Assembly (NCBI RefSeq): GCF_000970465.2
Contig: NZ_LAJE02000335.1
Span: 1-33,728 of the forward strand
Reading direction: 5' to 3'
Origin: Devosia insulae DS-56
GTDB taxonomy: Bacteria > Pseudomonadota > Alphaproteobacteria > Rhizobiales > Devosiaceae
DNA: 33,728 bases
Position numbers and translations under genes: made by a program. The notes beneath the pieces were generated by a model, which was not told the DNA's origin, ran no database searches, and was given only the letters and a program-made list of their open reading frames with translations. Of this stretch, positions 123-22,369 are shown piece by piece. Positions within the stretch are counted from its first letter, which is position 1, and each line of letters opens with the position of its first letter.

Positions 123-1637
123 TCAATGTCCCGCCATGTGTTGTCCGATGGTGTTCCGGTCGGTGTCCTCGATGCGGGCCACGTAGTTGATCGTGCCACC
201 GCTCATCACCGCCACCCGGTCGGCGAGTTCGAGGATCTCGTCGAGGTCCTCGCTCACCAGCAGCACCGCCGCCCCGCGGTTGCGCTGCTCCATGATCTGG
301 CTGCGGATATCGGCCACCGAGGCGAAATCCAGTCCGAAGCAGGGGTTGGCGACGATCAGCACGTCGACATCGCCGCTGAGCTCGCGCGCCAGCACCGCCC
401 GCTGCACATTGCCGCCCGACAGCGTCTCGATCGGCGCATCCGGCCCCTGGGTTTTCACCCGATACTTGGCGATCAACTCCTTGGCCTTCTCACGCATCGG
501 GCCGGGTGACATCCACCAGCCGAGCTTGGCCACCGGCGGCTTGTCGAAGGAACGGAACGCCAGGTTCTCGGCGACGCTCATCCGCGGCACGGTGGCGTTC
601 TTCAGCGGCTCCTCGGGCAGCCCGAACACCTTGTAGCGGTCGAACGAGCCGCGCTTGGGCCTAAAGAACTCGCCATTGATGTAGATGCCGCCATCCGACA
701 GCGGCCGCTGCCCACTGAGCGCCTCGACCAGTGCCGATTGCCCGTTGCCCGATACCCCGGCAATGCCGACGATCTCGCCGGCTTTCACCTTGAGATTGAC
801 CGCTTTGATCGCCGGCAGCCCGTCATTGTCCTCGGCGAACAGCCCCGCGAGCTCCAGCCGGTCGGCCCCTTCATTGTGCTTCTTCCGTGCCGCGCGTTCG
901 CGGATCGCCGTGTCGCCGATCATCATGGCGCTCATATCCGGCACACTCACCGTCTTGGCGTCGCCCGCCCCGGTGAAGCGGCCGCGCCGCAGCACGGTGA
1001 AGTGGTCGCAGAACGCCTTCACCTCGCGGAACTTGTGCGAGATCATCAGCACGGTGATCTCCTTGCGGTCGGCCATGCCGCCCAAGAGCCCCAGCATCTC
1101 GTCGGCCTCGCCCGGGGTCAGCACCGAGGTCGGCTCGTCGAGGATCATGAAGCGCTGGTCGAGATAGAGCAGCTTGAGGATTTCGAGCTTCTGCTTTTCG
1201 CCCGCCGACAGCGACGAGACCGGCGTATTCATCGGCACCCGGAACGGCATCTCGGCCATGAAGGCCTCGAGGTGCTTTTTCTCTTTCGCCCAGTCGATGA
1301 TCGCCGGCGCATCGGCGCGCGAGATCACCAGGTTCTCCGCCCCGGTGAGACAGGGCACCAGGGTGAACTGCTGGTAGACCATGCCGATGCCATTGGCCCG
1401 CGCGTCCCTGGGCGAGCGGATCGACACCTCCTGGCCGTCGAGCCTGACCTGTCCCTTGTCGGCGCTGTAAAAGCCCATGATGCATTTGACCAGCGTCGAC
1501 TTGCCGGCGCCGTTCTCGCCCAAGAGCGCATGGAACGAGCCCGCTTCGACCTTGATCGACACCTCGTCGAGCGCCACCAGCGGCCCGAACACCTTGGTCA
1601 TGCCGATGGCTTCGAGCGAGGGTGCGCGACCGGCCAT
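123..1637 (-). CDS. BMP/nucleoside-type ABC importer, double ATP-binding subunit
   Basis: This 504-residue protein is the energy-coupling subunit of the importer encoded by the same operon. It has two ATPase halves, as in RbsA and NupO-type proteins. The first half is intact: Walker A GENGAGKST at residues 40-48, signature LSAGEKQ at 143-149 and Walker B MILDEPT at 164-170. The second half has a degenerate P-loop (GVSGNGQS) and a signature LSGGNVQR, which is normal for this family. An ATG at 1637 is preferred over an upstream in-frame start, because it overlaps the amidohydrolase stop codon as TGATG and follows immediately on that gene; translational coupling is likely. It is the last gene of the operon. 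Family assignment is secure; the substrate is not visible in the sequence. Confidence 0.93.
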   Translation of the reverse strand: MAGRAPSLEAIGMTKVFGPLVALDEVSIKVEAGSFHALLGENGAGKSTLVKCIMGFYSADKGQVRLDGQEVSIRSPRDARANGIGMVYQQFTLVPCLTGAENLVISRADAPAIIDWAKEKKHLEAFMAEMPFRVPMNTPVSSLSAGEKQKLEILKLLYLDQRFMILDEPTSVLTPGEADEMLGLLGGMADRKEITVLMISHKFREVKAFCDHFTVLRRGRFTGAGDAKTVSVPDMSAMMIGDTAIRERAARKKHNEGADRLELAGLFAEDNDGLPAIKAVNLKVKAGEIVGIAGVSGNGQSALVEALSGQRPLSDGGIYINGEFFRPKRGSFDRYKVFGLPEEPLKNATVPRMSVAENLAFRSFDKPPVAKLGWWMSPGPMREKAKELIAKYRVKTQGPDAPIETLSGGNVQRAVLARELSGDVDVLIVANPCFGLDFASVADIRSQIMEQRNRGAAVLLVSEDLDEILELADRVAVMSGGTINYVARIEDTDRNTIGQHMAGH

Positions 1638-2359
1638 CACAGCACCTCGATCAGGGCGGCAGACGTCGCAACCGCGCCGAACACCCCGCCCTGCATCTTG
1701 ATCATGTCGATGGCGGCGAGGTGGTTGTCGTATTTGGTGGCAGCGCAGCAATCCTCGAGCAGCACGCATTCGAAGCCGCGATCATTGGCCTCGCGCATCG
1801 TCGTGTGGACGCAGACATCGGTGGTGATGCCGGTGAGCACGATATTGCGGATGCCCTTGAGCCGAAGGATCAGCTCGAGGTCGGTAGAGGCAAACGAGCC
1901 CTTCCCCGGCTTGTCGATGATCGCTTCACCCGGTGCCGGCGCCAGTTCCGGGATGATCTCCCAGCCCGGCTCACCGCGTACCAGGATGCGCCCCTGCGGC
2001 CCCTGGTCGCCGATGCCGGCGCCGATCCGCTGCGAGCGCCAGCGCTTGTTGGCCGGCAGGTCGCTGAGATCAGGCTTGTGGCCCTCGCGGGTGTGGATGA
2101 TCGGATAGCCCTTGGCCCGGAACGCGGCCATCAGCCGTTTCAGCGGTTCAATGGGCGCCCTGGTGAGCGAAATGTCGTAGCCCATCGAGTCGACATAGCC
2201 GCCCGGCCCGCAGAAATCGGTCTGCATGTCGATGACCACGAGCACCGTGTTGTCGGGTCGGAGGTCGCCGTCATAGGGCCACGGATAGGGCGTCGAGGCG
2301 ATGGTTCTGCCACCGGGCACCGCAGCAGCATCGATCCGTTCGTCCATGGAACTGCTCAT
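1637..2359 (-). CDS. Isochorismatase-like cysteine amidohydrolase, biuret hydrolase (BiuH)-like
   Basis: This 240-residue cytoplasmic cysteine hydrolase should cleave a C-N amide or ureide bond. The family triad is visible: D44 ([10 protein letters not shown]), K150 ([10 protein letters not shown]) and C183 ([12 protein letters not shown]). From memory, the sequence closely resembles rhizobial biuret amidohydrolase. The offset between my recalled BiuH triad (D36, K142, C175) and this one is a constant 8 residues. Long stretches such as [18 protein letters not shown] also look alike. Triuret hydrolase and RutB (ureidoacrylate) are related alternatives. The ATG at 2359 follows a CCGGAG ribosome site; a second ATG lies at 2347. 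The gene sits inside a transporter operon, 11 bases after a permease stop and overlapping the ATPase start by one base, so its substrate is probably derived from the imported compound. Confidence 0.85.
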
Positions 2360-2370: not shown

Positions 2371-3288
2371 TCACTTGGTGATCGACAGTTCGCCCGGCAC
2401 ATCCCGCGCCGCGGCTTTCGAGCCGGCGGAAATGATCATGATGATCAGCGTCAGGATGTAGGGGGCGGCGTTGAAGAAGTAGTAGCCCTGCGAAATGCCG
2501 ATCGATTGCAGCGACGGCCCGAGGGCTCCGGCGGCGCCGAACAGCAGGGCGGCGAAGATGCACTTGATCGGGTCCCAGCGTGCAAAGATCACCAGCGCCA
2601 CCGCCATCAGCCCCTGGCCGGAACTGAGGCCCTGGTTCCAGCTGCCGGGGTAATAGAGCGACAGGAACGCCCCGCCGATGCCGGCAAGAAAGCCGCCTGC
2701 CGCGGTGGCGAGGAACCGCACCAGGTCGACCGATACGCCCATCGCCTTGGCCGAGGCGGCGCTGTCGCCGGTCATCCGGACGATCAGCCCCCAGCGGGTA
2801 TTCCTGAAGGCCCAGAACATGAACACGGCAAGCGCGATGCCGACAAAGAACAGCGGGTTGACCTGCAGCGCCTGCGCCAAAGCCGGGTTGCCGGTCCAAT
2901 CGCCCAGCGGAATGGCGTCGAGCCGCGGCGCGGTGGGCTGGATGAACGGCTTGCCGAAAAAGAAGGCGAGGCCGGTGCCGAAACTCATCATGGCGATGCC
3001 GACGGCGATATCGTTGACCCGCGGCAGCTTGCAGATATAGCCGTGCAACGCCCCGAGGAAGATCCCCGAACCGCCGGCGGCGAGGACGCCCAGCCAGGCA
3101 TTGCCGCTGAGGTAGCTCACCGCATAGGCCACCATGGCGCCGAGCACCAGGTTGCCCTCGAGCCCCAAATTGATGCGCCCCGATTTCTCGGTGAGCGTTT
3201 CGCCCAAAGCCACGAACATGAAGGGCGTCGACACCCGGATGGCGCCGCCGAGCATGGCGATGAGCACGGTGACCAATGCGTTGTCCAT
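2371..3288 (-). CDS. BMP/nucleoside-type ABC importer permease 2
   Basis: This 305-residue inner-membrane permease belongs to the BPD_transp_2 family (NupQ/RbsC-like). It has several hydrophobic segments and the family-typical early stretch [15 protein letters not shown] near residues 34-48. It should pair with the permease at 3288-4403 to form the membrane channel. Its ATG overlaps the upstream permease stop as TGATG, so the two are probably co-translated. Length is normal for the family. The substrate cannot be read from the sequence; related permeases import nucleosides and other small nitrogenous or sugar compounds. Confidence 0.9.
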
Positions 3289-4403
3289 CAGGCCCGCTGC
3301 CCCGTTGCCTTGGGCTGGAAGAGCTTCAGCCGCCCGTAGAAGGTTTCAGACACCAGCAGCACCACGAACATCATCCCCTGCAGCACCAGGATTGTCGCAT
3401 CGGGCATCCCCATCCGCCGCTGGATCACCCCGCCGGCCGCCGCCAGCGCCCCGAAGAGGATCGCCACCGGGATCACTGCCAGCGGGTTCTGCCGGGCAAG
3501 GAAGGCGACGAGGATGCCGGTAAAACCATAGCCGGCGACCAGCGAGGCATTGGCCTGGCCGTGGATCGCCGCCACTTCGAAGAAGCCGGCGAGCCCGGCG
3601 GCGGCGCCGGCAATGGCGCAGCACACCACCATCAGCCAGCCCACCGGCAGGCCCTGCGCCCGCGCCGCCCTGAGGTTGCCGCCGGTCATCCGCGCCGCAA
3701 AGCCGAACGTGGTGCGGCTCATCAGCACCCAGAGCAGCAGCGCCAGCACCACCCCCGCCGCAAAGCCCCAGTGCACATCGGTGCCGGGGATCGAACCGAT
3801 GCGGTAGGCATCACCGATCGGCATGGTCGAAGGCTTGTTGGCCGAGGCCGGGTCGCGCAGCGCGCCCTCGACGAAGAAGTTCATGATGGCAATGGCGATA
3901 TAGCTCATCAGCAGCGAGGCGATGGTCTCGTTGACGCCGCGCGCATATTTGAGCCAGCCGGTGAACCCCACCCAGAGCCCGCCGGTCAGCACCGCCGTCA
4001 GCGCCATGACGAGCAGCGTCAGCGGGGGCGGCACGGCGTTCGAGACCAGCGGAATGGCGATGGCGGCAGCGCTGAAGCCGCCCAGCACCAGTGCCCCCTC
4101 CCCGCCGATCATGGTGAGCCCGATGCGCGCCGGAATGGCGAAGGCCAAGCCGGTGAGGATCAGCGGCGCGGCGCGCTGCAGCGAATTCTGAATCGAGAAC
4201 GACGAGCCGAAGCCGCCGGTCCAGATCAGCTGGTAGAACTGCAGCGGGTCCTTGCCGATGGCGACGAGGAACAGCGCGAACAGCAGCGCCGAAACCACCA
4301 GCGCCCCAATCGGGATGCTCACCGCCTCGGCGAAGCGGAGCAGGCCGAGGCTTGGCCCGGCCTTGGCCGGGATCGCAGCGGTGTCGGCGGTTTCAGCGGT
4401 CAT
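3288..4403 (-). CDS. BMP/nucleoside-type ABC importer permease 1
   Basis: This 371-residue permease is the larger partner of the one at 2371-3288, of the NupP/YufP type. It has a first membrane segment at about residues 25-55, a periplasmic stretch, and a conserved central region containing [18 protein letters not shown]. The ATG at 4403 is chosen because a GGGA ribosome site lies just upstream; an in-frame TTG at 4427 has no comparable site and falls at the edge of a palindromic repeat. The gap to the binding-protein gene is 187 bases and is filled by that repeat, which may reduce permease expression relative to the binding protein. Confidence 0.9.
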
Positions 4404-4425
4404 CGTCCCACGCTCCACGCTTTGC

Positions 4426-4567
4426 AAAAGGCCCCCTCACCCGGGTTGCTGACGCAACCCGACCTCTCCCCCGAAGGGAGAGGTGTTCGCGTGGCACGAT
4501 CTCGCCCATGCATCACCTCTCCCTTGGGGGAGAGGTCGGCGCGCAGCGCCGGGTGAGGGGGCCTTTT
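4426..4567. repeat. Compound extragenic palindrome (BIME-like) inside the transporter operon
   Basis: The ends are a near-perfect inverted repeat: AAAAGGCCCCCTCACCCGG on the left and its complement, ending in TTTTT, on the right. Each half also contains its own hairpin (ACCTCTCCC/GGGAGAGGT). It lies between the binding-protein gene and the first permease gene. A 21-base piece of the same element occurs at 38-58, and related elements lie at 8074-8197 and 10478-10765. The runs of A and T at the ends could make it act as a partial terminator in either direction. Confidence 0.8.
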
Positions 4568-4590: not shown

Positions 4591-5694
4591 TTAGGTAATC
4601 GACCCCTGCACGCCCTCGAGCAGCCAGGTCATGCCGTCGAGATACGGGTCGTAATTGTCGTAGTCCTTGTCGACGACGACGTTGCCGGCATTGTCCTTGA
4701 GCGTGCCCTTGTAGATCGGGGCGCCGGCGACCAGCGCGGCGATGGCGGCATCGGCCGCGGCGATCGCCTCGGGCGTCGCGCCTGCGCCATAGGGCGTGGT
4801 GCGCAGCATGTCGTTATTGTAGCCGCCGACGAGGAAATTGGGCGGGGTTTTGCCGGCGGCGATATCGTCGGCGTAGGATTTGTAGATCGTCTCCCACTTG
4901 TATTCGGCGCCGGTGATGAACCCCTTGGGCGCCAGCGGCGCCTGGCTGGCATTGTGGCCGGCGGTCTTCACGCCGCGCCCCTCGGCGGTCTCGATCACCA
5001 CCTTGGGGCTATCCACATGGCAGGTGATGACTTCGCAGCCGGCGTCGACCAGCGCGTTGGTGGCCTCCGCCTCGCGCACCGGCAGGCTCCACTCGCCGGT
5101 GAAGATCACTTGCACCGTGGCATTGGGGTTCACCGAACGCGCGCCGAGCAGCGCCGAGTTGATGTTGGACAGCACCGACGGAATGGGCTTGGCCGCCACG
5201 AACCCGATCTTGCCGCCCGACGAGAGCCCGGCTGCGACGCCGTTCACGTAATGCGCCTGGTTGAGGTACGGGAAATACGAGCCGGCATTGGCCGGGTCCT
5301 TGTCCTTGTTCCACAACGGCGCCGCGTGCCGGAAGGTGACATCCGGATACTTCTTCGCCAGTTCGACCACGAACGGGTTGTAATAGCCGAACGAGGTGGC
5401 GAGGATCAGGTTGGCGCCATCGAGGTTGATCATCGACTCCATGGACTTGGCCACGGCGTCGGTCTCGGGCACATTCTCTTCTTCCACCACGGTGATGCCG
5501 GGCAGTGCCTTCAGCGATTCCACCGATACGGCATGCGCCTGGTTCCAGCCGAAATCGTCCTTCGGCCCGACATAGACAATGCCCAGCACGACATTGGTCT
5601 GCGCCCGGGCGATCCCGAATGGCAGCGCCGATGCGGCAAGCCCGGCTGCACCGACCTTGAGCAACCTGCGGCGTGAGATAGCGGTTAGTGTCAT
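4591..5694 (-). CDS. BMP-family substrate-binding protein, Tat-exported
   Basis: This 367-residue periplasmic lipoprotein-family-like (BMP/Med/PnrA) binding protein captures the substrate for the importer encoded downstream. The N-terminus has a twin-arginine motif, SRRRLLK at residues 7-13, then a hydrophobic stretch and an AxA-type cleavage site (IARAQT), so it should leave the cell folded through Tat. There is no lipobox cysteine. The mature part starts VVLGIVYVGPKDDFGWNQAH, as expected for the BMP family. The ATG at 5694 has a strong AGGGGAAG ribosome site. It is the first gene of the operon and is transcribed away from the Rieske gene at 5982. Members of this family bind purine nucleosides and other compounds; the ligand here is unknown. 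Confidence 0.92.
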   Translation of the reverse strand: MTLTAISRRRLLKVGAAGLAASALPFGIARAQTNVVLGIVYVGPKDDFGWNQAHAVSVESLKALPGITVVEEENVPETDAVAKSMESMINLDGANLILATSFGYYNPFVVELAKKYPDVTFRHAAPLWNKDKDPANAGSYFPYLNQAHYVNGVAAGLSSGGKIGFVAAKPIPSVLSNINSALLGARSVNPNATVQVIFTGEWSLPVREAEATNALVDAGCEVITCHVDSPKVVIETAEGRGVKTAGHNASQAPLAPKGFITGAEYKWETIYKSYADDIAAGKTPPNFLVGGYNNDMLRTTPYGAGATPEAIAAADAAIAALVAGAPIYKGTLKDNAGNVVVDKDYDNYDPYLDGMTWLLEGVQGSIT

Positions 5695-5917
5695 GACGTC
5701 TTCCCCTGGATTGCACCTTTGGGCGCCGCCTTCTGAGCCCGGCGCCGGTATCCATGAAGGTCAATGCAATCCATGTGCCAAGCCGGAGCGGCGCCCGATC
5801 AGCGCCATTCCATCAACGATTCCAGCGCTTTGCGTGGAATGACCGGAGAATGCCGCTTGCCCGGCCCGAGCAATGAATGCTTAATGCATCCGCACGACCG
5901 ATCCGGTTGCCTAACAT

Positions 5918-5947
5918 TTGATCACAAGCCTGCGTGTTGCATACAAT
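5918..5947 (+). promoter_or_regulatory. Sigma70-like promoter of the Rieske operon
   Basis: TTGATC at 5918-5923 and TACAAT at 5942-5947 are separated by 18 bases, placing transcription start near 5954, some 28 bases before the ATG. The -10 box is embedded in a small inverted repeat GCAT-ACA-ATGC (5939-5949), a position where a repressor could block it. The rest of the 5695-5981 gap shows no gene, and I could not place a convincing promoter for the minus-strand operon. Confidence 0.5.
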
Positions 5948-5981
5948 GCGTTGACCATCGCTAACCAAGGACGTCTCGCCC

Positions 5982-6590
5982 ATGGCTGACTGGATACCGA
6001 TTGCCCTGAGCCGCGACGTGCCGGTCGGCATTACCCGGGCGGTGATCGTCGACACCCGCGAGGTGATGATCTGGCGTGGCGAGGATGGCGTGGCGCAGGT
6101 CTGGGAGGATCGCTGCCCGCATCGCGGCATGCGGCTGAGCCTCGGCTTCGTGCGCGGCAATGCGCTGAACTGCCTCTATCACGGCTGGCAGTATGGCGCC
6201 GGCGCCAATTGCCTGCGCATCCCGGCCCACCCGGATCTGACCGTGCCGCCCACCATCCGCGCCAATGCCTTTGCCGCGGCCGAGACCGGCGGCATGGTGT
6301 GGATGAGCGACGACAGCGCGGCCCCACCGCCGCAACTGCCCGCGCTGACCCCGGTGATCAGCCTCGCCATCGAAGTGGCGCCGGAACGCGTGCTTGCCGA
6401 ACTGGGCGGCTCGACTGCCGAGCCGCTCATTGAGCTGCCCTTCGCCGCCGACACCCTGCAGATCGGCTGGCACCGCGTGCATGCCGCAAAGACCATGCTG
6501 CACGCGACTGGCGCCGGCGCCGATATCGGCGCCGCCACGGCACACCTGCGGGCCCTGCGCCAGAACCTCGAACAGGGAGTCGCCGCATGA
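5982..6590 (+). CDS. Free-standing Rieske [2Fe-2S] protein with C-terminal extension
   Basis: This 202-residue protein carries one Rieske cluster site: C45-x-H47 and C64-x-x-H67 (CPHRG and CLYHGWQ), with 16 residues between the two motifs. The Rieske fold covers about residues 1-110. The remaining 90 residues are of unknown type and do not include an oxygenase iron site. It probably passes electrons to the catalytic subunit encoded next, whose start overlaps this stop by four bases (ATGA). The Rieske part resembles the N-terminal domain of ring-hydroxylating oxygenases more than a short ferredoxin. A weak AAGGA ribosome site lies 10 bases before the ATG. No signal peptide is seen, so it is cytoplasmic. 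Confidence 0.88.
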   Translation: MADWIPIALSRDVPVGITRAVIVDTREVMIWRGEDGVAQVWEDRCPHRGMRLSLGFVRGNALNCLYHGWQYGAGANCLRIPAHPDLTVPPTIRANAFAAAETGGMVWMSDDSAAPPPQLPALTPVISLAIEVAPERVLAELGGSTAEPLIELPFAADTLQIGWHRVHAAKTMLHATGAGADIGAATAHLRALRQNLEQGVAA

Positions 6591-7450
6591 GCCTCACCGA
6601 CGACCGGGCCGCGCTCGACCAGTGGTACACGCTCGGCGCGCTCCAGGATTTTCCTGATGGCGCCGAAGTTCACTCACGCCTGCTCGGGGAAGACCTCACC
6701 GTGCGCCGGCTTGCCGATGGCGTCGAGGTCCGCGCCGCCGGCCGCGCCCTCCCCGTCCGCACCGAGTACGGGCACCTGTGGACCAGTTTCGGCACGCCCG
6801 AACGTAACCTGTTTGAGCTACCGGAAAGCCGCGAACCGGATCGGCGCTGGATCCATTGCGGCCCGGTCCGCGTCCGCGCCTCCGGCCTGCGGCTGGTCGA
6901 GAATTTTCTCGATCTCGCCCACTTCCCCTATGTCCACACCGATATCCTCGGTTCCGAGGCGCATCCGGAGGTGGCCAAATACGAGGTCGAGCAGCGCCGC
7001 GATGTCGATGAGCTCTGGGCCACCAAATGCGAGTTCTACCAGCCCAAGGCCGCCGCCGCCTCCGACGAGGGGCAGATCAGCAAGTACATGTACCGGGTGG
7101 TGAGCCCCTTCAACGTCATGCTCTACAAGACCCCACCCACCGCGCCCGACCGCTGGGACGTCATCGCGCTGTTCGTCCAGCCGGTCGATGAAGCCGTCTC
7201 GGTGGCGAATGCCTTCATGCTGGTGATCGACGACACCAGCACCGACGCCGAACTCAGCGCCTTCCAGCAGATGATCTTCGTCCAGGACAAGATCGTGCTC
7301 GAGAACCAGCGCCCCTCATTGCTGCCGCTGCAGCCGGGCCGCGAAACCCCGACCCGCGCCGATCTCAGTTCGGTGCTCTATCGCCGCTGGCTCAAGGAAA
7401 AACAGCTCCGCTTCGGCACGGAACCACGCACGGATCTGCCCAATGCCTAA
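6587..7450 (+). CDS. Rieske-oxygenase catalytic subunit lacking a Rieske cluster (NdmC-like architecture)
   Basis: This 287-residue protein has the mononuclear iron site of Rieske oxygenases: the bridging-type N106 and D109, ligands H112 and H117 (NFLDLAHFPYVH), and a probable third ligand D234 (QDKIVLENQRP). Its first 80 residues look like a Rieske domain start (DQWYTLGALQDFPDG... GEDLTVRRLADG), but the CxH and CxxH cluster motifs are absent, as if the cluster loop had been cut out. It must therefore take electrons from another protein, most simply the Rieske protein encoded just upstream. Known Rieske enzymes with this split are NdmC/NdmD, which N-demethylate 7-methylxanthine. The reaction here could be demethylation or hydroxylation; the substrate is not evident. 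Confidence 0.87.
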   Translation: MSLTDDRAALDQWYTLGALQDFPDGAEVHSRLLGEDLTVRRLADGVEVRAAGRALPVRTEYGHLWTSFGTPERNLFELPESREPDRRWIHCGPVRVRASGLRLVENFLDLAHFPYVHTDILGSEAHPEVAKYEVEQRRDVDELWATKCEFYQPKAAAASDEGQISKYMYRVVSPFNVMLYKTPPTAPDRWDVIALFVQPVDEAVSVANAFMLVIDDTSTDAELSAFQQMIFVQDKIVLENQRPSLLPLQPGRETPTRADLSSVLYRRWLKEKQLRFGTEPRTDLPNA

Positions 7451-8066
7451 GCTCTACGACTACGTGCTCTCGGGCAGCTGCTACAAGGTGCGCCTGCTGC
7501 TCAACATGCTCGGCATCGCCTACGAAACCCAGGCCGTCGATTTCTTCCCCGGCCGCGAGCACAAGCGCCCGGAATTCCTGGCGCTCAACCCGCTCGGCCA
7601 GCTGCCGGTGTTCGAAGATGCTGGCCTCGTCCTCCGCGACGCCCAGGCCATCCTCTGCCACCTCGCCAGCAGCTACGACGCGTCAGGCCAGTGGCTGCCG
7701 CGCGACGTGCGCTTCGGTTCCGTGATGATGTGGCTGAGCTTTGCCGGCGGCGAGCTGATGGCCATCTCCGGCGCCCGGATGATCGCCATGCTGAACTACC
7801 CCGGCGATCTCGCCACGCTGCAGGCCAAGGCCCGCACCGCCCTCCGCCTCCTCGACGACCACCTCGCCGACCGCGCCCAGGCCGGCGGGCTATGGATCGT
7901 CGGCGCCACCCCCACCATCGCCGACATCGCCAGCTTCCCCTACGTCGCGCTGAGCCACGACGCCGGCATCGGCCACGAGGATTATCCGGCAATCAACCTG
8001 TGGCAGCGCCAGGTGCGGAAACTGCCGGGGTTTGTGGGCATGCCGGGGGTGCCGGGTTATTTCTAG
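7443..8066 (+). CDS. Glutathione-S-transferase-like protein (NdmE-like by context)
   Basis: This 207-residue protein has the GST layout: a thioredoxin-like N-terminal domain with SGSCYKVRLLL at residues 10-20 and NPLGQLPVFED (cis-proline P55), followed by an all-helical C-terminal domain from about residue 88. The glutathione gamma-glutamyl contact, usually Glu/Asp-Ser, reads D66-A67 here, so glutathione binding may be weak or absent. The start overlaps the oxygenase stop by eight bases, so it is tightly coupled to the oxygenase. In the NdmCDE complex a GST homologue has a structural role and does no conjugation; the same role is inferred here. A true transferase or reductive dehalogenase function remains possible. 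Confidence 0.85.
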   Translation: MPKLYDYVLSGSCYKVRLLLNMLGIAYETQAVDFFPGREHKRPEFLALNPLGQLPVFEDAGLVLRDAQAILCHLASSYDASGQWLPRDVRFGSVMMWLSFAGGELMAISGARMIAMLNYPGDLATLQAKARTALRLLDDHLADRAQAGGLWIVGATPTIADIASFPYVALSHDAGIGHEDYPAINLWQRQVRKLPGFVGMPGVPGYF

Positions 8067-8073: not shown

Positions 8074-8197
8074 GCGCTTGGCGCCCCTCACCCTGGCCCT
8101 CTCCCCAGAGGGGCGAGGGGACGATAGACGCACCGGCAGTGCCACAGCGCCCCCTCTCCCCTCTGGGGAGAGGGTTGGGGTGAGGGGCGCCAAGCGC
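8074..8197. repeat. Compound extragenic palindrome
   Basis: The outer arms GCGCTTGGCGCCCCTCACCC and its complement enclose two internal hairpins of the CCCTCTCCCC/GGGGAGAGGG type. The element lies between two convergent genes, the GST-like gene and the acylphosphatase-like gene, where it could help terminate both transcripts. Confidence 0.75.
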
Positions 8198-8210
8198 ACG
8201 GAACCAAGCC

Positions 8211-8516
8211 TCAGCCCCGCACCTCAAACCCATTCCCCACTGGGCCCACCTCGTCCACCGCCTCGATCGTCTCGACCAGCGCTTCGAGCGGCCCCAGCGT
8301 ACACGCCATTTCCAGCGCTCCGACCAGCGCCTCCGGCCCCGCCGCGACCAGCGTTACCGCCGATCCCTCAGCGCTCACCCAGCCACGGATATCGAGCCAG
8401 CGCGCCCGTTCGGCGACGAATTCCAGATAGCTCGCCACCTCCAGCCGGCCGCTGATCGCAAAACGCCGGTGCACCGGCGCGCCGCCTTCGACATCGGTGG
8501 AGTATTGGTTACGCAC
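8211..8516 (-). CDS. Acylphosphatase-like protein lacking catalytic residues
   Basis: This 101-residue protein matches the acylphosphatase fold by pattern: ISGRLEVASYLEFVAERARWLDIRGWVS aligns with the family's GRVQGVxFR...GWVxN region, and the C-terminal half has the spacing of the family. The catalytic arginine falls on L31 and the catalytic asparagine on A49, and the glycine-rich phosphate loop is gone, so hydrolysis of acyl phosphates is unlikely. It starts at a GTG (8516) with a weak ribosome site; no better start is visible. It converges on the GST gene and is separated from it by the palindrome. A role as a non-catalytic regulator or binding protein is speculation. Confidence 0.65.
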   Translation of the reverse strand: MRNQYSTDVEGGAPVHRRFAISGRLEVASYLEFVAERARWLDIRGWVSAEGSAVTLVAAGPEALVGALEMACTLGPLEALVETIEAVDEVGPVGNGFEVRG

Positions 8517-8844: not shown

Positions 8845-9288
8845 TCAGTCGCCGCCGAATTCGGACTTGAAGGTCGCAAAGTCGATCTGCATGCCGTTGA
8901 GCACGGTGCTCCAGTGGCGGACATAGGCGGCCTGCGCCACCGCCTCGGCGACCTCGGCATCGGTAGCGCCGCTGCCCTTGGCGGTCTTGGTCTCGAGCCA
9001 GATGCAGTACTGGCACGGGATCTGCGCCGCGACCGCGAGATTGATCAGCGCCTTGACCTTGGGCTCGAGCACGTTGCTCTCGTCGAACAGCAGGCCCTTG
9101 GTCATCGCCCAGGCGCCGGCCACCGCCGATGGCGGGTAGGCCTTCACATGGCTCGGCAGCACGCCGAGCGTCGCCTCTACATCCTGGTAGGTCTCTTCCG
9201 CGGTCGGGAACTCGGCAGCGCCGGCGAACGAGAACAGCGACAGCGTGGCAGTGACGGCGAGCGCCGCGATGGTGATGGTCGTTTTCAT
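8845..9288 (-). CDS. Exported AhpD/carboxymuconolactone decarboxylase-like protein
   Basis: This 147-residue protein has a clear Sec signal peptide (residues 1-25, ending SFAGAAEF) and a CMD/AhpD-type helical domain. The redox pair C92-x-x-C95 is in the usual place (PCQYCIWLETKTAKG). The histidine that normally follows the second cysteine is replaced by E99. AhpD-type proteins are usually cytoplasmic peroxidase-reducing partners, so the signal peptide implies a periplasmic thiol redox or peroxide function. The gene is divergent from the GlxA-type regulator at 9413, with 124 bases between the starts, and is the first gene of a likely two-gene unit with the small membrane protein. Confidence 0.82.
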   Translation of the reverse strand: MKTTITIAALAVTATLSLFSFAGAAEFPTAEETYQDVEATLGVLPSHVKAYPPSAVAGAWAMTKGLLFDESNVLEPKVKALINLAVAAQIPCQYCIWLETKTAKGSGATDAEVAEAVAQAAYVRHWSTVLNGMQIDFATFKSEFGGD

Positions 9289-9412: not shown

Positions 9413-10453
9413 ATGCCAAACGCCGACGAAAAGCCATTGCTTGTCGCCGTCGTCGCGACGCCGCACACCGGCACGGCCGGCACCTTCATCGCCATGGATC
9501 TGCTCGCCACGGTGGGCATGTATTGGGAAATGCTGCATGGCGAAGCGGGCGGTATACCGCGGTTCCTGCCGCGGCTCGTCACCTTCGATGGCGAGCCCTA
9601 TCGCGATTATCACGGCGTGCTGATCACCCCGCATGGCGCCTTCGCCGATTTTCCTGCGCCTGACATCGTCATGATCCCCGACCTGACGCTCAGCCCGCAC
9701 GAGCCGATCCCCAACACCTTCGCGCCGATCGCCGACTGGATCCGTTCGACCTACGAGCAGGGGGCGATCGTCGCCTCGATGTGCTCGGCCACTTTGCTGC
9801 TCAGCGAAACCGGCCTGCTCGATGGCGAGGAAGCCACCTCGCATTGGGGCTTCTGCGATGTGATCAAGGCGCGCCACCCCGGCATCGTGATGCGCAAGGA
9901 GCGCGTGCTGGTGCTGGCCGGCGAAGGCCACCGGCTGATCACCACCGGCGGCTTCGCCTCCTGGCACGATCTGCTGCTCTACCTGGTGAGCCGCCTTGCC
10001 GGCGCCGAGGAAGCGAGGCGGCTTTCAAAGCTGTTTCTGCTCGATTGGCACAGCGACGGCCAGCTCCCCTACGCGGCGTTGACGGTCGGCCGCAAGCACG
10101 ACGATCCGCTGGTTACCGCCGCGCAACTCTGGGTCGCCGACAACTATCGCACCCCCAACCCGGTCGCCACCATGGCCGCCGAGAGCGGCCTCACCGAACG
10201 GAGCTTCCTCCGCCGCTTCAAGCGCGCCACCGGCCAGGCGCCGATCGAATACGTGCAGACGCTGCGCATCGAGGAGGCGAAGCAAATGCTGGAAACCAGC
10301 GACGCGCCCTTCGACGAGATCGCCGCCGAGATCGGCTACACCGAGCCCTCCGCCTTCCGCCACCTGTTCCGCAAGCTGGTCGGCGTCACCCCGTCAGCCT
10401 ACCGCCGCCGACACCAGCGGCCGGTGTCGGAGGCAGAGCGGCAGTCGGGGTGA
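9413..10453 (+). CDS. GlxA-type AraC-family transcription regulator with DJ-1/PfpI domain
   Basis: This 346-residue regulator has an N-terminal DJ-1/PfpI-like ligand domain (about residues 8-190), including the family's nucleophile-elbow position at C124 (IVASMCSATLLLSETGLLDG), and a C-terminal AraC double helix-turn-helix (about 232-335, ending HLFRKLVGVTPSAYRRR). GlxA-type regulators often control catabolism of nitrogen compounds such as carnitine, glycine betaine or arginine. The simplest target is the divergent AhpD-like operon. The Rieske locus 1.3 kb away is another candidate, since no regulator lies next to it. The ATG at 9413 has only a weak GGA upstream. Confidence 0.88.
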   Translation: MPNADEKPLLVAVVATPHTGTAGTFIAMDLLATVGMYWEMLHGEAGGIPRFLPRLVTFDGEPYRDYHGVLITPHGAFADFPAPDIVMIPDLTLSPHEPIPNTFAPIADWIRSTYEQGAIVASMCSATLLLSETGLLDGEEATSHWGFCDVIKARHPGIVMRKERVLVLAGEGHRLITTGGFASWHDLLLYLVSRLAGAEEARRLSKLFLLDWHSDGQLPYAALTVGRKHDDPLVTAAQLWVADNYRTPNPVATMAAESGLTERSFLRRFKRATGQAPIEYVQTLRIEEAKQMLETSDAPFDEIAAEIGYTEPSAFRHLFRKLVGVTPSAYRRRHQRPVSEAERQSG

Positions 10454-11918: not shown

Positions 11919-13028
11919 ATGACTAAATCGGTAACCCGCGTGGCGCTGCGCCGCGCTGCCCTCGGGCTGGTCAGCGCCACCGCGCTGCTCGCCGCCACTG
12001 CCGCCGGCGCCCTCGCCGCCGACAAGGTGCTGCTGCTGGTCAATGGCGCGCTCGGCGACAAGTCGTTCTTCGACTCGGCGAACAAGGGCATCGAGGAAAT
12101 CAAGGCCAAGTACGGCGACGAGGTCGAGACCAAGGTGCTCGAGATCGGCGACGACCCGACCGGCTGGGAGCCGGCGCTGCTCGAAGTCTCCGAGCAGGAT
12201 TGGGACCTGATCATCGGCGGCACCTTCTCGCTCTCGGAAACCCTGGGCGCCGTGGCCGAGCAGTACCCGGACAAGAAGTACATCCTGTTCGATGCGAGCC
12301 TGCCCTTCGAAGGCGGCGCCTACCCCAACGTTTACGCCGTGCAGTACAAGCAGAACGAAGGCTCCTATCTCGGCGGCATCCTCGCCGCGGGCCTGCTGAA
12401 ATCAGGCCTCCCAGCTGACGCCGGCACCGCGCTCGGCTTCCTCGGCGGCATGGATATCCCCGTCATCAACGACTTCCTCGTCGGCTACATCGCCGGCGCG
12501 CAGTCGGTCACCCCTGACGTCAAGGTGTCGGTCGCCTATGCCGGCTCGTTCACCGATGCCGCCAAGGGCAAGGAACTGGGGCTCGCCCAGTATCGCTCCG
12601 GCGTGGCGCTCGGCTTCATCGCCGCCTCGCAGGCCGGCCTCGGCCAGGCCGCTGCCGCCAAGGAAACCGGCAAGTTCGTGCTCGGCGTCGATTCCGACCA
12701 GGAAGCCATCTTCGCCGAGAGCGATCCGGCGATTGCCAGCCAGGTGGTGAGCTCGGTGCTGAAGAACGTCGACGTCAGCCTCGTCCGCGCCTACGACCTC
12801 TACAAAGAGGGTAAGCTCCCCTTCGGTTCGGCCGAGACGGTCGGCCTCGCTGAAGGCGCCGTCGGCATCGTCGAGACCGGCAATTACGAAAAGCTCGCTT
12901 CGGCCGAGACCAAGGCCGCCATCGCCGACGCCAAGGCCAAGATCGCCGCGGGTGAGGTGGTCGTGCCGACCGCCTTCGGCATGGACACCGCCGCGATCAA
13001 CGCCATCCGCGACGCCGTCCGTCCGTAA
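11919..13028 (+). CDS. BMP-family substrate-binding protein
   Basis: This 369-residue periplasmic binding protein has a Sec-type signal peptide (residues 1-34, ending AAGALAAD). The mature domain begins KVLLLVNGALGDKSFFDSANKG, the BMP/Med pattern. It differs clearly from the BMP protein at 4591-5694, which has a Tat signal and the pattern VGPKDDFGWNQ, so the two importers probably take different ligands. A strong GGAGGAG ribosome site precedes the ATG. It is the first gene of a five-gene operon ending at 17986. Relatives bind nucleosides; the hydrolase at the end of the operon supports an N-glycoside ligand. Confidence 0.92.
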   Translation: MTKSVTRVALRRAALGLVSATALLAATAAGALAADKVLLLVNGALGDKSFFDSANKGIEEIKAKYGDEVETKVLEIGDDPTGWEPALLEVSEQDWDLIIGGTFSLSETLGAVAEQYPDKKYILFDASLPFEGGAYPNVYAVQYKQNEGSYLGGILAAGLLKSGLPADAGTALGFLGGMDIPVINDFLVGYIAGAQSVTPDVKVSVAYAGSFTDAAKGKELGLAQYRSGVALGFIAASQAGLGQAAAAKETGKFVLGVDSDQEAIFAESDPAIASQVVSSVLKNVDVSLVRAYDLYKEGKLPFGSAETVGLAEGAVGIVETGNYEKLASAETKAAIADAKAKIAAGEVVVPTAFGMDTAAINAIRDAVRP

Positions 13029-13034
13029 CCGCCG

Positions 13035-14579
13035 ATGAGCAACTCGCCGCAAATGGCCGAGGGCCCCATCGTCTCGTTCCGGGGAGTGTCCAAAACCTAC
13101 CCGAACGGCACCGTGGCCCTCACCGATGCCACCTTCGATATTCGGAGGGGGTCGATCCATGCCATCTGCGGCGAGAACGGCGCCGGTAAATCGACGCTGA
13201 TGAAGATCCTGTTCGGGCTCGAAAGCCCGAGCGCCGGACAGGTCCTGATCGATGGCGCCGCGGTCGACACCGCGACACCAGACTTCGCCGGCAAGCACGG
13301 CATCGGCATGGTGCACCAGCATTTCTCGCTGGTCCCCATCCTCACCGTCACCGAGAACATCATCCTCGGCCACGAGCCGCGCCGCGCGATCTTCATCGAT
13401 CGCAATAAGGCGCACCGCCAGGTGGTTGAATTGACTCAGCGCTTCGATCTCGCGGTCGACCCCGATGCGCGCACCGACACTCTGTCGGTCGCAGCGCAGC
13501 AGAAGGTCGAGATTTTGAAGGCGCTGTCGCGCGATACCCGCCTCCTGATCCTCGACGAGCCCACCGCGGTACTGTCGCCGCCTGAAATCGAGGAGTTGTT
13601 CAACCGCCTACGCGACCTCTGCGCCGCCGGCATGACCATCCTCTTCATCTCGCACAAGCTGCACGAAGTGCGGGCGCTGGCCGAAACCGTCACGGTGCTG
13701 CGCGCCGGCAAAGTGGTCGGCACCACGCCGCTCGCCGAAGTCGACGACACGACAATCACCCGCATGGTGATGGGCCGCGATGTCGATGTGCCGCGCCGCC
13801 AGCGCCAGCGCACCGACGCGCCGGTGGTGCTCGAACTCGACAATGTCTCGACCCGCGCGCGCGACCCGGCCGACCGCATCGAGGACATTTCTCTCAGCAT
13901 CCGTGCCGACGAGATCGTCGGCATTGCCGGGGTCGATGGCAGCGGCCAGCGCGGCCTCGTCGGCGTGCTGAGCGGGCTGATGCGCCCGGCTTCTGGCAGC
14001 ATTCGTCTCGATGGAACCGACATGACGCGCGCCGGTACACCCGGCTGGCGCGAGGCCGGTCTCGCCTATCTCCCGGCCGATCGCCACGCCCGCGGCGGCA
14101 CTGCCGCCTTGAGCCTTGCCGACAACGCCATTGCCGGCACCGATGGCGACAAGGCGCTGCAATGGGGCCCGTTCCTGCGTCGCGGCGCCATCCGCAGGCG
14201 GGTGCAGCAGATGATCGCCGATTACGCCGTGCGGGCCGGCGGCACCGGCGAGCGGCTGGATTCGCTGTCGGGCGGCAACGCCCAGAAGCTGATCGCGGCG
14301 CGCGAGCTCGCCGGTTCGCCGAAACTGCTGATCGCCGACCAGCCGACCCGCGGCGTCGATGTCGCCGCCGCTGCCCTGCTGCATGGCCGCATCGACCTCG
14401 CCGCCCGCGACGGCGCCGCCGTGCTGCTGATCACCGCCGATCTCGATGAACTGCTGCGCCTCGCCGACCGCGTGCTGGTGCTGTTCAACGGCAAGATCGT
14501 CGCCGATCTCGCAAACCATCCCGGCCTGACGCCGGCTGCGCTCGGCCCCTATATGCTCGGGCTGGAGACAGCCGCATGA
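13035..14579 (+). CDS. BMP/nucleoside-type ABC importer, double ATP-binding subunit
   Basis: This 514-residue double ATPase energises the importer. The first half has Walker A GENGAGKST at residues 46-54, Walker B LLILDEPT and an altered signature (LSVAAQQK), as is common in this family. The second half has a degenerate P-loop (GVDGSGQRG) and signature LSGGNAQK. It starts six bases after the binding-protein stop and has no obvious ribosome site, so it probably depends on coupling. Its stop overlaps the next gene by four bases (ATGA). Confidence 0.92.
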   Translation: MSNSPQMAEGPIVSFRGVSKTYPNGTVALTDATFDIRRGSIHAICGENGAGKSTLMKILFGLESPSAGQVLIDGAAVDTATPDFAGKHGIGMVHQHFSLVPILTVTENIILGHEPRRAIFIDRNKAHRQVVELTQRFDLAVDPDARTDTLSVAAQQKVEILKALSRDTRLLILDEPTAVLSPPEIEELFNRLRDLCAAGMTILFISHKLHEVRALAETVTVLRAGKVVGTTPLAEVDDTTITRMVMGRDVDVPRRQRQRTDAPVVLELDNVSTRARDPADRIEDISLSIRADEIVGIAGVDGSGQRGLVGVLSGLMRPASGSIRLDGTDMTRAGTPGWREAGLAYLPADRHARGGTAALSLADNAIAGTDGDKALQWGPFLRRGAIRRRVQQMIADYAVRAGGTGERLDSLSGGNAQKLIAARELAGSPKLLIADQPTRGVDVAAAALLHGRIDLAARDGAAVLLITADLDELLRLADRVLVLFNGKIVADLANHPGLTPAALGPYMLGLETAA

Positions 14580-15655
14580 CCCGCGCCATCCTCGCCGGCC
14601 TCACCGAATTCGCCCTCACCGCCCTGGTCATTGGCCTGGTGATCCTCGCCGTGCTGGTGCCGCTGGCGCTGTCGCAGCCCGACCCGCTCGAGGTGCTGCG
14701 GCTGTTCGTCCTCGGCCCGTTCGGCACCATTCGCCACATGGGCAATATCCTCGAGGCGGCAACGCCCACCATGATGACCGGGCTCGCCGCCACCATCATC
14801 TTCCGTGCCGGCATGTTCAACCTGGGCGTCGAGGGCAGCTTCTTTCTCGGCGGCCTCGCTGCCGCGGCGACTGCCGTGCTGCTGCCGCTCACCGGGCTCA
14901 TTGCAACGCCCGCCGCCATCCTGATCGGCGCCCTGGTCGGCTCGCTCGCCTGTATCGTGCCGGGCTACCTCCGCGTGCGCTTCGGCGCCTCCGAGATGGT
15001 CAATTCGCTGGTGCTGAACTTCGCCTTCCTGTTCGCCGGGGTGTATTTCCTCAACTACGTGCTGCGCGACCCCAATGCCGGGGCGCTGATGTCCTACAAA
15101 CTGCCTGGTGATTTCACCCTCGATCGGCTGCTGCAGGGCACCCGCCTCCATACCGGCGTCATCATCGCCTTCGTTGCGTGCCTCCTCGGCGGCATCTGGC
15201 TCTACGGCACCCGCTCCGGTCTCAATGTTCGCATCGTCGGCTGGAGCCCCGGCTTTGCCAGCCATCTCGGCCTCGCCTCCTCGAAACTCTTGATGCAGGC
15301 GCAGATCGCCGGCGGGCTGATCGCCGGCATGGCCGGCGCCATCGAAGTGCTCGGGCTCTATAGCCGCTTCTCCTGGACCGGGCTGCCCGGCCATGGCTGG
15401 ACCGGCATCACCGTCGCCATCCTCGCCCGCGAGAACCCGTTCCTCGTCATCCCCGCCGCTTTGTTCCTCGCCTACCTCCAGGTCGGTGGCGACATGCTGG
15501 CGCGCAACCTCGACGTGCCCAGTGAGATCGTCGGGCTGGTGACCGCCGCCATCATGCTGGCGGTGACCGCCGCCGCCATCTTCCGCCACCCGGCCTTCCT
15601 GCGGCTGATCCGCGACATCAAGGGCAAAGAAGCGGGCGAGGAGCAAGGCGCATGA
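14576..15655 (+). CDS. BMP/nucleoside-type ABC importer permease 1
   Basis: This 359-residue inner-membrane permease of the NupP-like type has many hydrophobic segments and the family stretch FRAGMFNLGVEGSFFLGG around residues 75-92. It forms the channel with the permease encoded next. Both of its ends overlap neighbouring genes by four bases (ATGA), so the ATPase and two permeases should be made in step. Confidence 0.91.
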   Translation: MTRAILAGLTEFALTALVIGLVILAVLVPLALSQPDPLEVLRLFVLGPFGTIRHMGNILEAATPTMMTGLAATIIFRAGMFNLGVEGSFFLGGLAAAATAVLLPLTGLIATPAAILIGALVGSLACIVPGYLRVRFGASEMVNSLVLNFAFLFAGVYFLNYVLRDPNAGALMSYKLPGDFTLDRLLQGTRLHTGVIIAFVACLLGGIWLYGTRSGLNVRIVGWSPGFASHLGLASSKLLMQAQIAGGLIAGMAGAIEVLGLYSRFSWTGLPGHGWTGITVAILARENPFLVIPAALFLAYLQVGGDMLARNLDVPSEIVGLVTAAIMLAVTAAAIFRHPAFLRLIRDIKGKEAGEEQGA

Positions 15656-16572
15656 TCGAGTTCTTCAGCGCCATCGCCGACCCCGCCGTCTTCGCCACCG
15701 TGCTCCGGGTAATGACCCCGCTGCTGCTGGCCGCGCTCGGCGTGCTGATCTCCGATCGCGCCGGGGTGCTCAACATCGGCATGGAGGGCATCATGCTGTC
15801 GGGCGCGCTGATCGGTGTGCTGGTCAGCGCCGCTACCGCCAACCCGTTCCTCGGGCTCTTCGCCGCGCTCATCGGCGGCGGCCTGCTCGGCGCGCTGATG
15901 GCGTTCTTCATCAACGGCCTCGGCACCCAGTTCATCATTACGGGCATCGCGTTGAACATGGCGGCGCTGGCCGCGACGACGCTCGGCCTGTTCCTCGCCA
16001 CCGGCGACAAGGGGATGTCGGGCGCCCTGAAAAGCGGCGTACTGCCCAATATCGACATCCCCTTGCTCGGCGGTGTGCCGATCCTCGGCCCGCTGCTGTC
16101 GGGGCACCATATGCTGACCTATCTCGCCATCCTCGCGGTGCCGGCCGTCGCCATCATGCTGGCCCGCACGCCGTTCGGCCTCCACATCCGCGCCGTCGGT
16201 TCCGACCCCAAAGCGGCAGCAGCCGCCGGCATCTCGCGTAACCGCGTGCAGCTCTATGCGCTGACCCTTTCGGGTGTGCTGGGCGGTGCTGCCGGCGCTT
16301 ATCTCTCAATGGGTTATGTCAGCTGGTTCGCGCAGAACATGACGGCCGGGCGCGGCTTCATCGCGCTTGCCGCAGAGGTGATGGGCATGGGCACCGCCTG
16401 GGGCACCTTTGCTGCCGCCGCCGTGCTCGGCATTGCCGAAACCGTCGCCATCACCATGCAGACCAAGGGCCTGCCCAGCGAGCTGATGCAGATGATCCCC
16501 TACATTGTGCCCGCCGTCATGCTCACCGTTTACGCGGCGCGCCGGCAAGCCAAAGCCCGCAAGATTTCCTGA
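15652..16572 (+). CDS. BMP/nucleoside-type ABC importer permease 2
   Basis: This 306-residue permease of the NupQ-like type has the conserved early region SDRAGVLNIGMEGIMLSGA at about residues 34-52 and multiple membrane segments. It overlaps the preceding permease by four bases. The hydrolase gene follows 25 bases later. Compared with the permease at 2371-3288, it has the same length and domain layout but a clearly different sequence, consistent with a separate transport system and not a recent copy. Confidence 0.91.
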   Translation: MIEFFSAIADPAVFATVLRVMTPLLLAALGVLISDRAGVLNIGMEGIMLSGALIGVLVSAATANPFLGLFAALIGGGLLGALMAFFINGLGTQFIITGIALNMAALAATTLGLFLATGDKGMSGALKSGVLPNIDIPLLGGVPILGPLLSGHHMLTYLAILAVPAVAIMLARTPFGLHIRAVGSDPKAAAAAGISRNRVQLYALTLSGVLGGAAGAYLSMGYVSWFAQNMTAGRGFIALAAEVMGMGTAWGTFAAAAVLGIAETVAITMQTKGLPSELMQMIPYIVPAVMLTVYAARRQAKARKIS

Positions 16573-16597
16573 CCACCCCTAGAACCGAAGGTAGCCC

Positions 16598-17986: not shown

Positions 17987-17997
17987 CTGCTCCGCGG

Positions 17998-18032
17998 GCC
18001 CGCCCCGGCGGGCGCGCTCGCGTCCGGTTTTT
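17998..18032 (+). terminator. Possible terminator after the ADP-ribosylglycohydrolase gene
   Basis: A GC-rich stem GCCCGC/GCGGGC (17998-18003 and 18008-18013, loop CCCG) starts 11 bases after the stop. The T-run (18028-18032) is about 14 bases after the stem, further than in a classical rho-independent terminator. Confidence 0.35.
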
Positions 18033-18123
18033 GACGAAAGCGGCGTCCCCAGTACCCAGCTACCGCCATGCCATGCTAGGTGCGATTGCGTTGCCGCGTG
18101 CCCGCGGAACGGCAGGGGGTTGC

Positions 18124-21533: not shown

Positions 21534-22369
21534 TGGACCGCATCACTCCACGCCAGGCCCTGCGAATGGTGGTCATCGCCGCCACCGCGCTGTGCTTCCT
21601 CATGCCGCTTTACTGGCTGACGATCTCGGCGCTGCGGCCGGAGGCCGACATCTTCCGCTTCCTCAATCCGTTCGGCCCATGGACGCTGATCCCTAACCAG
21701 CTGACCGCCGACAACATCGTCGGATTGTGGAGCGGATCGTTCTCGCGAGCCATCGTCAATTCGATCGTCGTTGCCCTCGTCACCGTCATTGCCGGCCTGA
21801 TGGTCTGCGCCTCGGCCGCCTTTGCCCTGGCCGTGATCGAGTTTCCCGGCCGCGGCGTGGTGTTCACGACGATGATCGTCAGCTTCCTCATCCCCTTCGA
21901 TGCCATCGCCGTGCCGCTCTATTCGATCATGCGTGGCTTCAATCTGCAGAACTCCTATGCCGGGCTGGTCCTGCCGGGGATCGGCAACGGCCTCGCGGTG
22001 TTCCTGCTGCGCCAGTTCTTCCAGGGCATTCCCAAGGAACTGCGGGAGGCCGCGATGGTCGACGGCATGGGTTGGTTCCGCATCTTCTGGAGCATCTACT
22101 TGCCGCTCTCGAGGCCGGCCCTCGTCAGTGCCGCGCTCATCATGTTCATCTTCCAGTGGCAGGCCTATCTCTGGCCGCTGCTGATCGCCCCGTCCAACGA
22201 CATGAAGGTCGCGGCGGTGGCGCTGGCGCAGTTCTCGAGTGCCTACAATGTCAGCTTCGGCCTGATCTTTGCGGGAGCGGCGTTCCTGTCGCTGATCCCG
22301 ATGCTGATCTTCGTCTTCTTCCAGCAATATTTCACCAGTTCCGTTGCCGCGACCGGCAGCAAGGAGTGA
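21533..22369 (+). CDS. Sugar-type ABC importer permease, MalG-like
   Basis: This 278-residue permease has six predicted membrane segments and the EAA loop (KELREAAMVDGMGWFRIFWSIYLPL). The ATG at 21533 overlaps the previous stop by one base; a long upstream in-frame extension is an open frame within other genes and is not conserved protein. Its end carries the AAGGAG that serves as the ribosome site of the nucleoside hydrolase. Confidence 0.92.
   Translation: MDRITPRQALRMVVIAATALCFLMPLYWLTISALRPEADIFRFLNPFGPWTLIPNQLTADNIVGLWSGSFSRAIVNSIVVALVTVIAGLMVCASAAFALAVIEFPGRGVVFTTMIVSFLIPFDAIAVPLYSIMRGFNLQNSYAGLVLPGIGNGLAVFLLRQFFQGIPKELREAAMVDGMGWFRIFWSIYLPLSRPALVSAALIMFIFQWQAYLWPLLIAPSNDMKVAAVALAQFSSAYNVSFGLIFAGAAFLSLIPMLIFVFFQQYFTSSVAATGSKE

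Follow-up and report, generated by a model that had tools for sequence, protein, structure and literature searches.

A well-supported split Rieske oxygenase with a glutathione S-transferase-like partner beside a transporter and biuret operon in Devosia insulae

Three overlapping genes of Devosia insulae DS-56 encode what is, on good support, a split Rieske oxygenase with a glutathione S-transferase (GST)-like partner. They lie on contig NZ_LAJE02000335.1 of a 5.75-Mb genome in 410 contigs; the stretch of DNA that was analysed, 33,728 nucleotides, is called the window below. The first gene (5982..6590, + strand) encodes a 202-residue stand-alone Rieske [2Fe-2S] protein (PF00355, 67.7 bits against a cut-off of 20.3), the second (6587..7450, +) a 287-residue catalytic subunit (PF19112, 73.9 bits against 23.5) and the third (7443..8066, +) a 207-residue GST-like protein of the NdmE type (Pfam GST_N/GST_C). 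Opinion is evenly balanced on whether this trio N-demethylates, or otherwise oxidizes, purine-derived compounds for their nitrogen. A purine-derived substrate is itself likely, and N-demethylation is the best single reaction, a choice that we hold with middling confidence. For the family as a whole, our best single guess at the substrate class is N7-methylguanine/7-methylxanthine-type bases from RNA turnover.

The arrangement given in a first-pass annotation of this DNA, genes on one strand overlapping by 4–8 bases, agrees with the open reading frame (ORF) coordinates: 4 bases (ATGA) are shared by the Rieske and catalytic genes and 8 by the catalytic and GST genes, all on the + strand. The cofactor residues that it read also held across homologues. 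The Rieske ligands C45/H47 and C64/H67 are present and invariant in all 55 aligned Rieske homologues, and the 2-His-1-carboxylate iron site (D109, H112, H117 and D234) is present and invariant in all 61 aligned catalytic homologues, none of which contains a C-x-H...C-x-x-H motif, as the annotated lack of Rieske ligands in the catalytic subunit had implied. Residues for both cofactor sites are present in the system, spread over two chains.

Gene neighbourhoods were compared by ORF clustering across 112 fetched loci (labelled L plus a number), a set that holds four Devosia genomes twice (L081–L084 duplicate L042, L044, L046 and L047). Neighbour counts refer to genes within 10 kb of the catalytic gene in 80 named loci, 70 of them near-full length; these counts are not a census, because the 80 relatives resemble the window most closely among at least 542 catalytic homologues. 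A GST gene lay near the catalytic gene in 77 of the 80 and a stand-alone Rieske gene in 76, so the linkage is not due to chance. The three genes thus stay together in most relatives, and the GST and oxygenase are not drawn from independently occurring families. An exception is L034, where the catalytic gene has neither a Rieske nor a GST gene nearby. Chance assembly of the trio, or its consisting of pseudogenes, is ruled out by residue conservation together with these counts. Rieske and catalytic distances correlated (Pearson 0.66, 1,081 pairs from 47 sequences), a value to which common descent contributes and on which no proof is based. Catalytic homologues (E ≤ 1e-10) occurred in 71 of 136 genomes of the window's family, from which 20 longer loci were taken, and a class-wide even sample gave a catalytic match at E ≤ 1e-30 in 8 of 385 genomes, D. 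insulae included. Among the matches listed, the nearest named relative was Devosia sp. Root413D1, whose catalytic protein is 96% identical.

The oxygenase-type Rieske domain occupies about residues 1–109 of the 202-residue protein and is followed by a C-terminal domain of around 90 residues. In sequence searches its best PDB matches were SxtDIOX (GxtA) and SxtT, then NdmA, and it matched the N-terminal half of SxtT/GxtA. Identification as an ordinary Rieske ferredoxin is disfavoured because the matches to Rieske domains of oxygenases are much stronger (SxtDIOX 138.6 bits versus 34.8 for the CarAc ferredoxin). An AlphaFold2 (AF2) model (predicted local distance difference test score (pLDDT) 94.7) contains the second small domain and matched SxtT/GxtA in Foldseek with a query TM-score (TMq) of 0.65–0.77 over 245–273 columns, gaps counted. 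Since Foldseek gives no aligned ranges, we infer from the model only that the C-terminal domain may be a shrunken, eroded oxygenase catalytic fold. In the catalytic subunit, residues 53–277 align strongly to SxtDIOX (GxtA) 105–332, residues 4–41 align weakly (2 bits) to its residues 3–40, and about 50 residues, the cluster-binding part, are absent between the N-terminal base and the iron domain in comparison with SxtDIOX. As judged from this alignment, the N-terminus is a putative vestigial Rieske base that lacks the cluster-binding part and precedes the mononuclear-iron domain. The AF2 model of this subunit (pLDDT 88.4) gave TMq values of 0.80–0.85 against SxtT/GxtA and 0.71–0.75 against NdmA/NdmB. 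A Rieske site hidden in the 287-residue protein is ruled out by the 0 of 61 motifs and by the model with its Foldseek matches, which recovered a Rieske oxygenase fold. SxtT/GxtA, which act on saxitoxin-type substrates, are the best solved-structure relatives of both halves of the trio, and NdmA/NdmB, to which purine N-demethylation belongs, are the next-best structural relatives of the catalytic subunit; in both pairs, however, one chain holds both cofactors, whereas here the Rieske and catalytic domains sit on separate proteins, unlike an SxtT/NdmA-type alpha subunit. The two proteins look like oxygenase chains eroded in complementary ways, and such chains would lend themselves to testing how electrons pass from one subunit to another.

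The first-pass annotation had proposed an NdmCDE-like N-demethylase, and this likeness stood in part. Like NdmCDE of Pseudomonas putida CBB5, the trio combines a cluster-less catalytic subunit, a Rieske domain supplied by another chain and a GST-like third protein. All three parts are homologous to the NdmCDE-type set, with identities of 47% (catalytic), 45% (GST) and 42% over 105 residues (Rieske domain), measured on the same-architecture plasmid proteins of P. putida Tik1 and not on the CBB5 proteins themselves. Searches of the D. insulae genome with the Tik1 GST and Rieske–reductase fusion put the window genes first. The trio is not NdmCDE proper, because the defining Rieske–reductase fusion is absent: the 202-residue protein has one Pfam domain, the fusion matches the locus only over its own residues 6–118, and elsewhere in the genome it matches weakly, over single domains. 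Further differences from NdmCDE are the lack of a reductase at the locus and the other neighbouring genes. Judged by homology, the trio would work like NdmCDE without its defining fusion, as a variant of that kind. A similar layout of separate Rieske, catalytic and GST genes with a BMP-type transporter is found on a Paracoccus alcaliphilus plasmid (L040), which differs by encoding a reductase of its own, of the PDR/VanB type, as well as an 8-oxoguanine deaminase.

The fused form has its own distribution. The order catalytic gene, long Rieske protein gene, GST gene occurs on plasmids of P. putida (L036 and L037), Sinorhizobium (L038 and L039) and Mesorhizobium (L041), and a domain check of the L036 middle protein identified Rieske, NAD-binding and Fer2 domains. 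Among the 20 loci from the window's family, the Rieske protein is free in eight Devosia genomes and fused in three Devosia genomes and nine of the other genus, and the fusion cluster was seen in 0 of the 80 named relatives. Most of the best named relatives have a free Rieske protein, unlike the reductase-fused NdmCDE. A quick tree had 118 rows, 114 of them different, with one Komagataeibacter protein standing in it twice. The window belongs to a group of 96 rows, none of them fused (SH-aLRT 99). The 17 fused rows fell outside this group and are not a single clade (2 changes); a second copy from Komagataeibacter and an extra one from Sinorhizobium also lay outside. The root is unsafe because the outgroup branches are extremely long. 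According to a review, NdmCDE was the first reported oxygenase with a split-off Rieske domain, there fused to a reductase, and 18 organisms, mostly Sinorhizobium and Mesorhizobium, have ndmCDE-like clusters of unknown function (PMC4408171); homologues of the trio as such are hence not new. Among the papers listed by literature text searches, in which subscription journals are poorly covered, there was none on a stand-alone or split Rieske demethylase or on a Rieske route for methylguanine.

These comparisons bear on whether the trio is the 7-methylxanthine N7-demethylase of a caffeine pathway. The GST and catalytic identities to the NdmCDE-type set would fit that assignment, which is nevertheless decidedly unlikely: a full-length NdmA/NdmB-like oxygenase was not found in the window, the window falls inside the 96-row group without fused rows, and the surrounding genes are those for a transporter, biuret and nucleosides. 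Elsewhere, the conjugative plasmid pKNA08 of Komagataeibacter nataicola from a kombucha tea culture (L033) is a lead for a genuine methylxanthine pathway; it carries two Rieske/catalytic/GST sets as well as full-length Rieske oxygenases and one VanB-type reductase.

For the third member of the trio, the Tik1 GST search placed the window protein first at 46% identity, with the next best at 28%. Its annotated D66-A67, in place of the usual E-S glutathione contact, is present in the sequence. Among the GSTs of non-fused loci, 16 of 92 have D-A at this site and 5 of 92 the canonical E-S; among those of fused loci the numbers are 5 and 0 of 16, respectively. Four of the 92 are second copies, without which the non-fused counts become 13 of 88 for D-A and 5 of 88 for E-S; an alignment-free recount missed the motif in 69 of 88 rows and was not used, although the aligned segments bear out the counts given here. 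The rarity of E-S fits a structural role for the GST, without proving it, and such a role has been proposed for the GST-like NdmE.

Evidence for a purine-derived substrate comes from the relatives' neighbouring genes, which indicate breakdown of purines for nitrogen rather than of caffeine. A BMP-type substrate-binding protein gene is present in 64 of the 80 named loci, an 8-oxoguanine-deaminase-like hydrolase cluster in 43, adenine-deaminase-like genes in 36, a guanine-deaminase cluster in 28 and xanthine dehydrogenase in 17. At least one of the three deaminase-like groups occurs in 61 of the 80 and in 58 of the 70 near-full-length loci. By way of comparison, the chance of a guaD-like match per 20-kb window is around 1%, an estimate from 21 matches in seven genomes of 4.0–5.9 Mb that leaves out adenine-deaminase-like genes and does not amount to a measured control. 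The family cut-off for 8-oxoguanine deaminase was passed by L040, L116, L127 and L091; that for guanine deaminase was passed by L041 and just missed by L125.

One hydrolase group bears directly on methylated guanine. A 2026 report describes N2,N2-dimethylguanine hydrolases (NdmH), names 12 active-site residues and announces a follow-up on genomic context; its main text does not contain the terms oxygenase, operon, transporter, gene cluster or genome neighborhood (PMC13054789). Among 54 aligned hydrolases, all 12 poNdmH residues are present in those of six loci (L031, L035, L154, L158, L159 and L160), and in L035 (Rhizobium leguminosarum WSM1325) they stand at that report's own numbering. Gene order in these six loci is Rieske, catalytic, GST, hydrolase, BMP transporter (in L154 read through over-long ORF starts), and the same order is found on plasmid pRL10 of R. 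johnstonii 3841, where the trio is RL_RS29070–RL_RS29080. Because guanine/8-oxoguanine deaminase-like genes, the dimethylguanine hydrolase and BMP transporters recur near the trio, the caffeine N7-demethylase may stem from a methylpurine-scavenging system, as this company suggests. What becomes of modified RNA bases in soil bacteria, and possibly how triuret arises, could be tested in a laboratory Rhizobium strain. A larger conserved cluster in L131, L133, L139, L140, L143–L149 and others adds a sulfopyruvate-decarboxylase-like thiamine pyrophosphate protein, a GMC oxidoreductase, an aldehyde dehydrogenase and a xanthine-dehydrogenase-like protein; the examples examined score below the named families' cut-offs, and the cluster is possibly a whole undescribed catabolic pathway.

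In the window itself, a presumed control region of 287 bp (5695..5981; from the ORF coordinates and the sequence itself) separates the trio from a divergent operon, whose genes all lie on the − strand. It comprises a BMP/PnrA-like ATP-binding cassette (ABC) transporter substrate-binding protein (4591..5694; PF02608, 95.9 bits versus a cut-off of 24.1), two permeases (3288..4427 and 2371..3288; both PF02653), the biuret amidohydrolase BiuH (1637..2248, its start inferred from the family match) and an ABC transporter ATP-binding protein (123..1769; PF00005; nearest NCBIfam NF047930 at 396.6 bits, below its cut-off of 670). The true start of the ATP-binding protein is probably further in, because the listed ORF overlaps BiuH by 133 bases. 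BiuH scores 380.4 bits against the NF050097 equivalog cut-off of 370 and 369.8 bits to 6azo, the R. leguminosarum 3841 BiuH structure. It is present in each of the seven distinct non-fused Devosia loci of sufficient length; another, TrtA-like hydrolase follows further on in five of five, the L042 copy matching 6xix at 309.4 bits; 6XIX is the triuret hydrolase TrtA (PMC7948467).

That the trio and this operon are unrelated neighbours, the trio having some other substrate, would agree with their opposite strands and with the differing gene sets paired with the trio in relatives. We regard it as very improbable, given that the BMP gene adjoins the trio in all nine non-fused Devosia loci seen, the protein being 88–99% identical in the eight others. 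Moreover, Salinarimonas ramus (L127) carries on one strand, in order, Rieske, catalytic, GST, 8-oxoguanine deaminase, BMP protein, permeases, BiuH, ATPase and TrtA genes, and this collinearity suggests that the two divergent operons of the window are one functional unit. Between Salinarimonas and Devosia the transporter, BiuH and TrtA proteins are 70–80% identical (BMP protein 75%, BiuH 78%, TrtA 80%). In Rhizobium calliandrae (L086) the trio and the BMP/BiuH set likewise lie within about 11 kb.

The same genes raise the alternative that the trio is a purine-ring oxygenase and not a demethylase, hydroxylating or cleaving an 8-oxopurine (urate or 8-oxoguanine) and passing triuret and biuret fragments to TrtA and BiuH. 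HpxD, like SxtT, hydroxylates or cleaves a ring, and this alternative draws on the consistent BiuH and TrtA-like genes in Devosia, the 8-oxoguanine deaminase in the Salinarimonas operon and the presence of HpxD-annotated proteins among the distant relatives. Set against it, the nearest architecture is NdmCDE-type, BiuH-like matches occur in only 13 of the 112 loci (two of them weak), and biuret and triuret may come in by import, which together leave ring oxidation unlikely. More speculative by far is an undescribed alphaproteobacterial pathway in which the split oxygenase, served by a general ferredoxin and FNR-like protein in place of a dedicated reductase, attacks methylated or 8-oxo purines. 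If it exists, those purines would be RNA-derived methylguanines, 8-oxoguanine or urate, and in Devosia and Salinarimonas their oxidation would supply the enzymatic step, so far missing, that yields triuret, which TrtA and BiuH would use as a source of nitrogen.

Several results weigh against N-demethylation of purine-derived compounds by the trio. SxtT/GxtA hydroxylate C-H bonds, and the HpxD-annotated distant relatives (xanthine hydroxylase) mean that sequence does not imply N-demethylation. The 8-oxoguanine-deaminase-like hydrolase cluster is mixed, with L035, L175, L131 and L103 below named-family cut-offs, and the adenine-deaminase-like example also falls below its family's. Every purine gene that was counted is absent from 12 near-full-length named loci out of 70, including one from Devosia. 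Neither in the window nor in its clade's long loci (L042, L043, L045, L048 and L049) was a purine deaminase or xanthine dehydrogenase found, so the purine inference rests on more distant relatives and Salinarimonas; on another contig of the D. insulae genome a guanine-deaminase-like gene lies beside an adenine-deaminase-like gene. An NdmH-like hydrolase (E ≤ 1e-20) was found in none of four of the five Devosia genomes searched, D. insulae included, the fifth giving a match at 30%. Finally, a VanB-type search of the D. insulae genome found no dedicated oxygenase reductase (best match 29%, E 3.6e-7), and neither of its two PF00175 proteins has a Fer2 domain (PF00111).

The annotated absence of a reductase from the window extends to the genome with the queries tried: VanB-type, PF00175, PF14759 and PF00111 queries recovered no dedicated reductase, other reductase types not having been searched. 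PF14759 had no match in the D. insulae genome and one among five genomes (G087). Five [2Fe-2S] PF00111 matches are present in the D. insulae genome. One PF00175 protein adjoins a gene read from the letters, without a family search, as sulfite-oxidase-like; the other, a 225-residue FNR-like protein, is common to all six non-fused Devosia genomes checked, 70–97% identical in the five others and the sole PF00175 match in two, and is no more than a candidate for part of the electron donor. VanB- or NdmD-type reductase matches occur in 2 of the 80 named loci (partial in L151, weak in L159); the others are in plasmid loci L033 and L040 and in the loci with the fusion. Electrons probably come from a general ferredoxin paired with a small FNR-like protein whose gene lies elsewhere.

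Returning to N-demethylation as the preferred reaction, the BMP-type transporter would take up purine-derived heterocycles. The free Rieske protein, carrying the [2Fe-2S] cluster, would pass electrons across a predicted subunit interface to the mononuclear iron held by the catalytic subunit, a chain whose Rieske domain lacks the cluster-binding part, and the GST-like protein would serve as a structural partner, as proposed for NdmE. Formaldehyde is the product of oxygenase demethylation, and the enzyme would release N-methyl groups in this form. The products would then feed purine and ureide nitrogen catabolism: in relatives by way of deaminases and xanthine dehydrogenase, in the window by biuret hydrolase and in Devosia relatives by triuret hydrolase. 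A published Rieske-to-iron distance is about 12 Å (PMC12445004).

Other features surround the trio. Downstream, a CMD/AhpD-like protein (8845-9288, −) and an AraC regulator with a DJ-1 domain (9413-10453, +) had a tblastn match (E ≤ 1e-6) in 0 of the 111 other loci. An acylphosphatase-like ORF (8211-8516, −; 24.0 bits versus a cut-off of 22.5) lies beside the trio, and by the same tblastn threshold similar matches occur in 54 of the 112 loci, for example L040 (16240-16545) and L175 (7225-7491). A second BMP-type ABC transporter is encoded at 11919-16569, ahead of an ADP-ribosylglycohydrolase (16598-17986); LacI regulators are also present, and a nucleoside hydrolase domain lies further along. 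These regions (11919-19137 and 21727-23319) look like a nucleoside-salvage region beside the trio. Directly after the GST gene, at about 8083-8203, an imperfect inverted repeat of the CCCTCACCC...GGGTGAGGGG type, read by eye, may be a terminator or a dispersed repeat.

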